This document shows positions 435 through 55,426 of a stretch of DNA of 64,000 nt, one piece after another (the stretch's first letter is position 1; the number at the start of each line of letters is the position of its first letter). The notes under the pieces were generated by a model, which did no database searches, had not been told where the DNA came from, and saw nothing but the letters and a program-made list of their open reading frames with translations. Made by a program: the position numbers and the translations under genes. The stretch comes from Chitinivibrionales bacterium (GTDB taxonomy: Bacteria > Fibrobacterota > Chitinivibrionia > Chitinivibrionales > JANQEN01): the NCBI GenBank assembly GCA_028278335.1, contig JANQEN010000063.1, positions 1 to 64,000 of the forward strand. Reading direction: 5' to 3'.

Positions 435-782
435 GTTGAAATAAATGAAGCCCGTCTAGGGCTTTTACCTAGAAGTGTAGAATTTTATGAAACACACCGA
501 GGCTTTTTACCTGGAGGTGCAGAAATTGTTGAAACAGGCCTAGGACGTTTACCTGGGAGTGTAGGAATCTTTGAAACAGTATTAGGTCTTTTACCAATGG
601 TAGAAGAATTTTCTGAAACACAGCAAAGTCTTTTCCCTAGAGCGGCTGGAATTGTTGAAACATCTCTAGTCCTTTTACCTAGAGCTGTTGAAATTATTGA
701 AACACAACTAGTCCTTTTTCCAAGATGGGTAGAAAATGTTGAAACATCTTTCGGTTTTTTGCCTAAGGGTGTTTGTTTTTTT
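435..782 (+). repeat. 42-bp tandem array 1 (about eight units)
   Basis: Eight consecutive units begin at 447, 489, 531, 573, 615, 657, 699 and 741, so the period is exactly 42 bp with no indels. Seven of the eight units begin with GAAACA (the first with GAAGCC). A T-rich core TTTTACCTAG and a tail near GTGTAGAAATTGTT recur in degenerate form. Bases 7-13 of each unit vary most. In unit 1 the segments CTAGG and CCTAG flank the core and could pair. Because 42 is divisible by three the frame stays open from 435 to 848 and would read as 14-residue repeats (ET..L..LPR..E.V). I read this as a DNA or RNA repeat array, not as a gene, because there is no convincing start signal. It lies 373 bp upstream of the helical protein gene at 1156. 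A second array of the same period precedes that protein's paralog. Confidence 0.85.
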
Positions 783-1155
783 CCAACCCTACTAGCCCCT
801 TTTATTTGGATATATTCTACTTTATATATAACCTCGTTACTTTATTAATTACATAACCTTACAATGTTTATCGGAAATTGATTTGATATCATATCCTCAT
901 TAAAGTTGGACTGGATTGGACAAACATGCAATACATAAAATGAAATTTCTATAGATTACAAAAAATTATTAAAAAAAATACAATATTCATCCCAACTCAC
1001 TCGTAATGATTACCAGAGGACAGTAACAGAGTGCAGTAGCAAGGAACAGTTCCTCTCCTGATAGATGTTCAGCTGAAAAGTCGTCATAAAAAGTTGTTAG
1101 TGCTTTTTTAGTGTAATTACTTGTGATATGTTTTACTCAATTATGGAGGTGCATC
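783..1155 (+). other. Leader between array 1 and its gene
   Basis: This 373-bp spacer separates the repeat array from the helical protein gene. It contains CAGTAACAGA at 1021-1030, a 10-mer also present at a similar distance upstream of the paralogous gene (54647-54656). It also contains a small perfect inverted repeat, GGAAC-A-GTTCC, at 1043-1053. No open frame with a ribosome-binding site is visible. It may hold a promoter or a non-coding RNA, but nothing here proves either. Confidence 0.4.
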
Positions 1156-1857
1156 ATGGCTCGCATGGTAAGTCGATATATTTCACCCAAAAAGTGTCTT
1201 GAAACAGGAGAGAGACACATTCACTTAGCAAATCAGGAGTGTGGCCTTGACAACAAATACTCCCAGGCGTTTAAACCTAAATATGATACTCTCAAGGAGA
1301 AGTTAGAAAAGTGGGATGAAATGCGTAGGAGCTGTCTCTTTGCATATGATAAGGTGTATATATCCAAAAAACGATTACTCAATGCTACCCGTACCTGTTT
1401 AGAGCATATTAAACAGTTTCGACGTGATAATCATGGTGCTATTATTCACGCCTCCTTTGACGAAATAGTTACCTATAGTACCTATTCGAAAATGAAATTA
1501 ACCAAATTGCTTAGTGCAATCGAGAACTTAGTGTATCGTTTCAAACAGCTTGATGACGGCCACCCACTCTACCATTTTACAGATGACCTTGGGAACGTTG
1601 TAAACACTACCAAATTAGCCATAGCAGCCTATGAAGAGGCACAATATAACAGCGCAAAAGCCAAAGTTGAAACACAATGTGCCCAGGACGAAGTTATCAA
1701 ACAGTATAAAAGAAATTACTTCGAAGCAAACATAGAAATGGGAAGAGACTGTGCAGATGATCTGTTCCCTATTCTTCGGCGAAAAAAGTTAGTCAATGAT
1801 ATTGAAGAAGTTGAAGTGGAGGATATTTCAGAGGATAGGGCAACTGAAAGTGAGTAA
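1156..1857 (+). CDS. Array-associated helical protein, paralog A
   Basis: This 233-residue protein has no signal peptide and no membrane segment. It is highly charged and appears almost wholly alpha-helical. I chose the ATG at 1156 because GGAGG (1145-1149) lies just upstream; an in-frame start at 1123 has no such site. It is clearly related to the gene at 54767. Both begin with M-A/P-R-M, both have a central L..L...I..L pattern followed by a HPLY/HGLYPL segment, and both end with an alanine-rich helix leading to a C.Q.....Y..NYF.A...MG motif and then LFP. The C-terminus here is extended and acidic. Size and layout recall DUF6261-type proteins of Bacteroidota, but that is an unverified recollection. 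The function is unknown. Both copies sit downstream of a 42-bp array on the same strand, which suggests the array and the protein work together. Confidence 0.85.
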   Translation: MARMVSRYISPKKCLETGERHIHLANQECGLDNKYSQAFKPKYDTLKEKLEKWDEMRRSCLFAYDKVYISKKRLLNATRTCLEHIKQFRRDNHGAIIHASFDEIVTYSTYSKMKLTKLLSAIENLVYRFKQLDDGHPLYHFTDDLGNVVNTTKLAIAAYEEAQYNSAKAKVETQCAQDEVIKQYKRNYFEANIEMGRDCADDLFPILRRKKLVNDIEEVEVEDISEDRATESE

Positions 1858-5713: not shown

Positions 5714-6100
5714 TTGAATATCTACGTAGGGAATTTCCCCAAAACCATCGATGATGAAGCGATCCGCAACCTTTTTTCAGCACACGGCGAGGTGACTGAA
5801 GTAAAACTACTTAAGGATCGATATACTGGTGAACTTAGAGGTTTTGGTTTTGTTATTATGGATTCGAAAGATGACGCCTTAAAGGCCATTGAAGCAATCA
5901 ATGGTTCCGAGCTTGAAGGGCGTAAGCTTGTTGTCAATGAAGCCCGTCCCAAAAGAGACAATCGCGGCGGCGGCGGCGGTGGTCGTGGAGGTTTCCGCGG
6001 CGGCGGCGGCGGTGGTGGCGGCGGTTACCGCGGTGGCGGTGGTGGTGGCGGCGGTTATCGCGGTGGCGGTGGTGGCGGCGGCAACCGCAGTCGTTATTAA
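5714..6100 (+). CDS. RRM-domain RNA-binding protein with glycine-rich tail
   Basis: The first ~80 residues form a single RNA-recognition motif. RNP2 is IYVGNF at residues 3-8, and RNP1 is a RGFGFVIM segment around residue 43. The remaining ~45 residues are an RGG/YRGG tail of almost pure Gly and Arg, encoded by near-identical GGT/GGC blocks. Start is TTG at 5714, with TAGGAG at 5702-5707. Proteins of this type bind single-stranded RNA and are often cold-induced in bacteria. The 275-bp upstream region may carry its control, but I see no definite element there. A strong terminator follows. Confidence 0.93.
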   Translation: MNIYVGNFPKTIDDEAIRNLFSAHGEVTEVKLLKDRYTGELRGFGFVIMDSKDDALKAIEAINGSELEGRKLVVNEARPKRDNRGGGGGGRGGFRGGGGGGGGGYRGGGGGGGGYRGGGGGGGNRSRY

Positions 6101-54184: not shown

Positions 54185-54504
54185 TTTCCAAATTTGTGAC
54201 GATTATTATTTATGCATGCAAATCCATCGCCATAATTGTGGAATGCCCTCCTCATCCTTGCATACCCCCTTCCGCATATGTGGAATAGGGTCTGCACGCT
54301 TACATCACCCGTTCCACAAATGGGGAAGCATAGATGCTCTCTTGCAGAGGCTTTTCCGCAAATGCGGAATTGGTGATGCATTCTAACAGAGACCTTTCCA
54401 CAAATGCGGAGTTGAGTGTGTAAACTAACATACCCCTTGCCACATGTGAGGAAAGATGTTTGCCTTCTTACAACACCCATTCCGCATTTGCGAAGCGTCA
54501 TTTG
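54185..54504 (+). repeat. 42-bp tandem array 2 (about eight units)
   Basis: Units begin at 54185, 54227, 54269, 54311, 54353, 54395, 54437 and 54479, exactly 42 bp apart. Each carries a 16-bp palindromic core of the type TTCCGCAAATGCGGAA and, near its end, a CTTACAnnnCCC tail. The 14 bases between vary most. The core is unlike that of array 1, but the period and the position upstream of a paralogous protein are the same. The array also keeps a frame open on the minus strand, giving 14-residue repeats (ICGK....). I take that as a by-product of the 42-bp period. Confidence 0.88.
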
Positions 54505-54766
54505 CTTGCTCGAGGATCTATGGGCACTGAAAAAATTGATAGAATGAAAAAAAGAGAATTATTTCAGCAATAAATATGAAAGTCCATACGTATTTGTGAT
54601 TGAGACGTCATGAATAGAGCAAGATGATTGCACAAACAAGTCTGGCCAGTAACAGATCCGAAACAGCTTTTGTAAGCTTGCATGCTCTATTGATATTAAA
54701 AAGACTCTTGATGCTATTCATGGAAAAGCTCATGAACGTTTAACGACTGGGAAAGTGAGGTTTATT
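54505..54766 (+). other. Leader between array 2 and its gene
   Basis: The 262-bp leader contains CAGTAACAGA at 54647-54656, identical to a 10-mer in the leader of the first locus and about the same distance from the gene (120 versus 135 bp). No other gene is supported. Confidence 0.4.
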
Positions 54767-55426
54767 ATGCCTCGTATGATTCGTGAAAAAGATTCCTCAA
54801 GCATGTGCATAAGCATTTGTCGCCGACATTGCCGCTTATCTAAGCAGAATAGCTATATCAGCAAAGATATCGACACACTAACCAAGCTCTGTAACAGCTT
54901 AAAAATTAAAGAGCAAGACCGTATTACCGCACAAACTACTTGCATGGATCAGTATGATGACATCATCAACAAAGATTATGAATTGAATGATATGATTCGT
55001 ACTATTTTCGAAAAATGCAAGCAGTATGATCGTGAGCATATGTTCGATCAGGTGCTTGAGCACCTGTTTCCCACTAAAACCTATGGCTATCTTCTTCGTC
55101 AAAACCGTCATAAACAACTGGTGCATCTGGAAAAGATCGTTACAAAGCTGAAATCCTTGGGTGAGTCCCATGGATTATACCCATTGGTTGACAGGCTACA
55201 AAAGCAGATGCAGAGTATTGCCCAGTCAATAGCGTTGCATAAGAATGCCCTTCGTATGGTTCAGGCAGCAAAGGCCCAAGAACAGATAGCAAAGGAGAGA
55301 GTGTGCACTCAATACGCCGTCAACTATTTCAATGCCTGTGCACAGATGGGTAAGAAGAGGGCTGCTCGGCTTTTTCCTAAGCGGATTAGTCGTAAAGTTG
55401 CAGAAAATATTGAAGATAAAAAATAA
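54767..55426 (+). CDS. Array-associated helical protein, paralog B
   Basis: The 219-residue protein is highly basic and almost entirely alpha-helical. It has no signal peptide. The ATG at 54767 has GTGAGG just upstream; a GTG at 54755 is in frame but less likely. It is a paralog of the gene at 1156: both start M-x-R-M, share LxxLxxI..L.SL...H.LYPL in the middle and a C.QYAVNYF.ACAQMG segment near the end, then LFP. It adds a Lys/Arg-rich tail, where paralog A has an acidic tail. The function is unknown. Its presence after a second 42-bp array makes a joint role for array and protein likely. Confidence 0.85.
   Translation: MPRMIREKDSSSMCISICRRHCRLSKQNSYISKDIDTLTKLCNSLKIKEQDRITAQTTCMDQYDDIINKDYELNDMIRTIFEKCKQYDREHMFDQVLEHLFPTKTYGYLLRQNRHKQLVHLEKIVTKLKSLGESHGLYPLVDRLQKQMQSIAQSIALHKNALRMVQAAKAQEQIAKERVCTQYAVNYFNACAQMGKKRAARLFPKRISRKVAENIEDKK

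Follow-up and report, generated by a model that had tools for sequence, protein, structure and literature searches.

The repeat array at locus 2 of the window (the whole 64,000-nucleotide stretch of Chitinivibrionales DNA that was analysed) and the gene that follows it are a real and recurrent unit. Genes of this family are linked to such arrays in two phyla. The unit length of the arrays is nearly fixed, and the better arrays carry two dyads half a period apart. The arms of the dyads do not covary, further arrays of the same type are present where no family gene could be detected, and the protein, which is predicted to be all-helical, is internally duplicated. The best explanation, and the one towards which we lean, is that the family consists of putative architectural DNA-binding proteins that would coat their arrays both in cis and in trans.

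The array and the leader at locus 2

The array (W2 type, 54185..54520; neither the arrays nor their dyads are assigned a strand) is made of about eight units of 42 bp and has degenerate edges. The original prediction of eight such units starting at 54185 is borne out by the self-match of the sequence at a lag of 42, which is 0.49 compared to a mean of 0.25 (z = 5.3; the runner-up is lag 84), and by Tandem Repeats Finder, which also gives a period of 42 bp. Eight cores follow each other in 42 bp steps from about 54186 to about 54495. The proposed 16 bp dyad core does contain the strongest dyad centre of the unit (z = 4.3), but only two of the eight cores (54270 and 54354) match TTCCRCAWATGYGGAA exactly, and cores 1, 2 and 8 are degenerate. 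This dyad (dyad A) has the exact match TTCCGCATATGTGGAA at 54270..54285, and other A cores are found, in 42 bp steps, at 54228, 54312, 54354, 54396, 54438 and 54480. The 14 variable bases noted between the cores are not free spacers. The inter-core segment (54286..54311) contains a second dyad (dyad B), TGnA....TnCA within GG..CC, with its centre 21 bp from that of dyad A. Dyad B is the weaker of the two, and its centre ranks first of 67 as the partner of dyad A; the same is true of the array on contig C222. The predicted tail of the unit, CTTACA..CCC, is present but only loosely kept; it reads CTTRCATACCCC in the cleaner C222 copy.

The leader between the array and the gene is about 250 bp long. 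An alignment of five leaders reveals a GAGACGTCATGAA block (54602..54614, plus strand), perhaps promoter-proximal, which is similar at the C225 paralog and looser at the other paralogs. The array also contains an open frame of 112 residues on the minus strand. A coding function of the arrays was rejected, because 43 bp arrays cannot hold a frame, the open strand differs in other arrays, and the codon-phase signal is marginal at this array only (p = 0.04, compared to p >= 0.31 in the other four arrays tested).

The family protein

The gene at locus 2 (54767..55426, plus strand, with the ATG at 54767, the stop at 55426 and GTGAGG upstream of the ATG) encodes a protein of 219 residues, which belongs to no database family. 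It is indeed a paralog of the 233-residue protein encoded at 1156..1857 on the plus strand (27% identity). The contrast that had been noted between a basic and an acidic tail is also correct, the net charge of the 25 C-terminal residues being +7 at locus 2 and -6 in the paralog. The charge of the tail varies across the family and is not conserved, and the pI of many family members, at 5.5-7, is in the neutral or acidic range.

The AlphaFold2 model, for which the input was three sequences (the window proteins and L029, a homolog described below), is all-helical (pLDDT 85, pTM 0.71), with helices predicted at residues 11-27, 32-90, 114-130 and 139-194. The protein contains an internal duplication of about 100 residues. 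Its two halves, each of which ends in FP, are homologous by profile comparison (94% probability, E-value of 8.5e-8 over 90 columns); this E-value is possibly inflated by the coiled-coil composition common to both halves, but the FP motifs are nevertheless in register. The best conserved columns in the alignment of 33 members are F203, A55, F101-P102, A168, A175, L45 and L144. As none of the polar residues is invariant in this alignment, the protein is probably not an enzyme, and the pattern of conservation is more like that of a scaffold.

Searches of Pfam, NCBIfam, PHROGs, PADLOC and the PDB sequences returned only weak chance matches to the family protein, and none of the 14 members searched matched Pfam. 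Foldseek found nothing at E <= 0.001 for the model among the PDB and viral structures, and no DNA-binding domain was recognised in the protein. Like the neutral or acidic character of many members, this counts against the binding of DNA. The queries tried gave no homologs in phages, plasmids or IMG/VR, so that nothing points to an origin from phages or plasmids.

Paralogs in the same genome and relatives in other genomes

The assembly searched (6.33 Mb in 301 contigs, 90% complete and broken at some arrays) contains five complete paralogs and a sixth truncated by a contig end. The C-terminal end of the sixth gene is found at the start of its contig (L010, G000:C258:1-160), where any array is unassembled. 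An array is located upstream of all five complete paralogs, with a period of 42 bp (41 bp at C176) and a different sequence in each case. The expectation that each array goes with its own protein is thus correct as far as the pairing of loci is concerned. Array 1 of the window (W1 type, 441..790) consists of 42 bp units with the dyads CTAGG.CTTTTACCTAG and TGTnnnAA.n.TTnnnACA, 21 bp apart. Its repeats are unrelated to those of locus 2, as had been proposed, and both arrays have a period of 42. The window contains one further tandem repeat, a GC-rich one of 30/33 bp at 5963-6082 (GGCGGCGGT...), which looks like a glycine-rich coding repeat.

The paralog profile led to a member of the family in a genome from another family of the same order (G029), with a 43 bp array downstream of the gene. 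A scan of the collection led to another on a contig of a Myxococcota MAG (L029), with a 42 bp array downstream. L029 was assigned to Myxococcota from a contig of 3.7 kb with a frameshifted gene, but other Myxococcota genomes agree with this label, and a wider profile identified more members of the family in this phylum.

The 28 loci found by the protein alone were scanned blindly for periods of 30-60 bp. The top period is 42 or 43 bp at 21 of these loci, while a top period of 41-43 bp is found in four of 18 control stretches drawn from the same genomes (Fisher p = 7e-4). Since coding DNA favours multiples of three, 43 bp gives the cleaner signal. Periodicity at 43 bp is raised in the test set only, the mean best score being 0.436 compared to 0.371 in the controls. 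The other top periods at the remaining seven loci are partly due to a contig end near the gene or to an array beyond the flank that was retrieved. Array-like scores at 41-43 bp are also seen in two of the 18 controls, one of which, when inspected, seems to be a coding repeat. The matches at L032 and L025, which are weak, helical and without an array, were left out of the counts. The MAG of L029 encodes a distant helical protein as well (L033, 1-4797; E-value of 6e-5), without a 42 bp array, and this match between coiled coils may be due to chance.

Arrays of the same type elsewhere in the genome

A second W2-type array of about eight units, cleaner than the window copy, is found on C222 between two unrelated genes, and no family gene is detectable near it by an HMM search at E <= 1. 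The C225 type recurs on C206 (94%), C228, C230 and at the ends of C162 and C161, and the C161 type recurs on C17 (75%) and C149 (69%). There is no further full copy of the W1 or C176 type in the genome. Arrays of a known type without a detectable family gene are present on C222, C206, C228, C230, C17 and C149, and at about eight places in G029; the absence of the gene is judged by HMM search in a draft assembly with 90% completeness and with breaks at some of the arrays, and the other genomes are likewise drafts that are interrupted at arrays. Wherever both flanks of a solo array were assembled, the array is intergenic. Unit length and dyads are retained in the solo arrays. The single site at C261:24451 is located inside a hydrogenase-like coding gene and was taken as chance. 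A search of 168 genomes of the phylum gave such arrays in just two, G000 and G029, both of which have the gene; this co-occurrence is weak evidence, because the repeat types are genome-specific and only two candidates were scored per genome.

Several other features accompany these arrays. The contigs C228, C230, C162 and C161 (L110, L111, L112 and L113) stop inside C225-type arrays with an identical end of 94 bp, so that the assembly graph branches at the arrays and the copy number is underestimated. Other dispersed repeats (e.g. CGCTTTGCTCCTCGCAATGACCAATGTAGG, with matches of about 90-175 bp), unrelated to the 42 bp units, are situated near several arrays and genes at L007, L107, L108 and L114. 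The solo array of C149 (L109, 895-1330) has A-tract/T-tract centres of the CAAAAAACTTTTTG type at nearly every unit, and phased A-tracts could bend the DNA.

The distribution of the arrays might be that of a mobile system similar to REP/RAYT, in which the protein copies and spreads the arrays as non-autonomous elements and binds them for their mobilisation, not for the organisation of the chromosome. One gene-linked array is accompanied by arrays of the same type elsewhere, the types are genome-specific, the gene is sporadic (with the cut-offs applied, three of 168 and eight of 379 genomes), and RAYT genes and REPs have the same layout (PMC2817692). Such a system is nevertheless unlikely, as neither a HUH motif nor an invariant polar residue is seen in the protein, the copies of the arrays share flanks of unequal length and have no clear termini, and their number is low (1-4 per type in this genome).

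It is also conceivable, with a rather small probability, that the array is simply the operator of its own gene and that the other arrays are leftovers of duplication. Plain autoregulation would agree with the position of the arrays in this genome, all five of which are upstream of the gene and are followed by a leader with common promoter-like blocks. The side of the array varies in the family, however. G029, the MAG contig, G189 and others carry it downstream, and in G397, where three 41 bp arrays have common GAACTTTCAAGTTC-like dyads, the gene lies between arrays. Moreover, the solo arrays have kept both unit length and dyads.

Symmetry of the repeat unit

Every possible dyad centre was scored in six arrays with no motif assumed. 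In five of the six, a partner of the strongest centre is found at a distance of half a period, and its rank among some 67 other centres is 1, 1, 1, 2 and 5. The strongest centre of W1 has no such partner (rank 17), and its second and third centres are exactly 21 bp apart. The combined significance of the half-period dyads is p = 6.6e-5 (Fisher) over the six arrays and p = 0.003 over 17 Myxococcota arrays, several of which, GC-rich ones, show the signal weakly or not at all. With two dyads 21 bp apart in each unit, the unit behaves as a 42 bp palindrome, and the array is therefore directionless. BLAST gives independent evidence of this, as whole arrays of G029 match their own reverse complement at 67-69%. 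One 41 bp unit of G397 (L042, 4400-4770) is an almost perfect palindrome of 40 bp (GCGGAATACGGCACTTGAACTTTCAAGTGCCGCATTCCGCC). In B-DNA, 42 bp correspond to four turns of the helix and 21 bp to two, and the helical phase would be the reason for the 42 bp period.

The dyad had been thought capable of forming either a hairpin in RNA or a protein-binding site in DNA. Compared to the expectation from shuffled units, there is no compensatory change between the arms of the dyads, with 533 complementary cells observed and 534.4 expected in 12 arrays, and 549 observed and 552.8 expected in six solo arrays. The sole exception is one dyad of L029 (p = 0.003, one of 18 tests). As the arms do not covary, the symmetry is kept via conserved half-sites. 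Sites in DNA that are bound by a protein are thus favoured, and the hairpin part of the proposal is not. An RNA system (type III toxin-antitoxin-like or other), in which transcribed hairpin repeats bind the protein, appears very improbable: although the array is directly upstream of a gene for about 220 residues here and the dyads could fold as hairpins, the arms are without covariation, the arrays have no match in Rfam and are located on either side of the gene, the units are only about half alike, and the protein, predicted to be all-helical, has no ToxN-type match in Pfam, NCBIfam or PADLOC.

Spacing and turnover of the arrays

Units in which about half of the bases have changed remain in exact register. 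The close copies on C233 and C8 of G029 differ by 39 substitutions and no indel, C233 and C59 by 28 substitutions and one 2 bp gap, and C225 and C206 by 24 substitutions and one 1 bp gap. The comparison is confined to close copies, global alignments of more diverged ones having been discarded for their out-of-register gaps. The pattern of many substitutions and few or no indels suggests selection on the spacing of the units.

The sequence of the arrays turns over faster than that of the proteins. For proteins that are 52-75% alike, the similarity detected between the arrays is mostly slight: the L064 and L074 proteins are 75% alike and their arrays are weakly similar, and the W2 and C225 proteins are 52% alike and their arrays are not detectably so. 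Over 351 pairs, the similarity of the proteins and that of the arrays are not correlated (Spearman 0.07, p = 0.19), which leaves a strict one-to-one match between the sequences of protein and array, as the original prediction implied, unsupported. Either the protein can readily acquire a new specificity, or it is symmetry and pitch, more than bases, that it recognises.

Unequal crossing-over alone can give arrays with homogeneous centres and degenerate edges. The edges observed here could have been made in this way, but inert satellite DNA lying near the genes by chance is scarcely credible, as one protein family is linked across phyla to arrays of unrelated sequence and the same unit length, and few or no indels accompany the many substitutions between close copies.

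A possible mechanism

The architectural explanation makes it possible to describe how protein and array might work together. The protein would be a non-enzymatic, internally duplicated helical DNA binder, and the array would be its polyvalent binding platform. If the 42 bp unit is a palindrome of two inverted 21 bp half-units, successive half-units would lie on the same side of the DNA helix. The two halves of the protein and the two inverted half-units in 42 bp suggest that one unit might be occupied by one two-half chain or by a dimer. The long helices of 56-59 residues would measure about 84-88 Å, which is of the order of the length of 21 bp (about 71 Å). Neighbouring chains would then assemble, along the eight or so units of an array, into a regular and continuous nucleoprotein lattice. 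The same protein would also cover, in trans, the arrays of its type at other places in the genome, and distant loci would be brought together or marked, possibly for nucleoid organisation, segregation or regulation. Several protein-array pairs could operate side by side in one genome.

Carried further, the system might be satellite-like, with a helical protein that packages the arrays at a fixed pitch of four turns. The sequence would turn over by concerted evolution while the unit length is held, and independent pairs would mark or cluster different sets of loci. This extension is tentative, and we rate it as doubtful. If the reading of the system is true, at least two phyla contain an unrecognised protein family with DNA arrays of its own, and the combination of fixed unit length and free sequence is one that is typical of satellite DNA and the proteins packaging it, not of operators. 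The several independent pairs per genome would be a natural set of separate address labels. The question is raised whether unit length and symmetry, and not the base sequence, can specify binding.

Comparison with known systems

No description of this protein-array system was found in the literature searched, the coverage of which is incomplete. CRISPR was rejected, as the repeats are only about half alike, the inter-core segments are conserved among units, and the protein has no cas-type match. ToxIN can be set aside as well. No ToxN-type endoribonuclease was found (no Pfam, NCBIfam or PADLOC match, and no PDB fold at E <= 0.001), and the arrays do not resemble an upstream tandem-repeat antitoxin RNA, being downstream in several genomes and having arms without covariation.

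Plasmid iterons and centromere-like repeats consist of sites about two helical turns apart beside the gene of their binding protein. The arrays are similar in spacing and position, but no replication initiator, ParA or other motor is encoded next to the family gene in the stretches read, and there are several unlinked pairs per genome. MatP recognises short palindromic sites, matS, over the chromosome; the matS sites are single, and MatP is a conserved, single-copy protein. The system described here has similar short palindromes spread over the chromosome, but they are grouped into arrays, there are several paralogs, and these have no sequence match to MatP.

KfrA, an alpha-helical protein from a plasmid setting, is composed of a globular DNA-binding head at the N-terminus and a coiled-coil tail and binds a repetitive operator (PMC7783346). 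The combination of a helical protein with repetitive DNA is common to both systems, but none of the 14 family members searched in Pfam matched KfrA, and no plasmid homolog was found.

RAYT (TnpA_REP) genes are located beside their cognate palindromic repeats (REP/BIME), which are dispersed, alternate in orientation and have a genome-specific sequence (PMC2817692). All these features, including the dispersed copies of the cognate repeat, are shared by the family. The family protein, however, is no HUH tyrosine transposase, having neither a HUH motif in the alignment nor a Pfam or NCBIfam match. Instead of two inverted flanking repeats, an array is found on one side of the gene at nearly all loci (on both sides in G397), and the repeats form fixed 42 bp head-to-tail lattices of about eight units in low copy number. 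The system is new, relative to the literature searched, in its parts and in its layout, but the physical principle behind it, that of a protein bound to repeated palindromes, is probably familiar.
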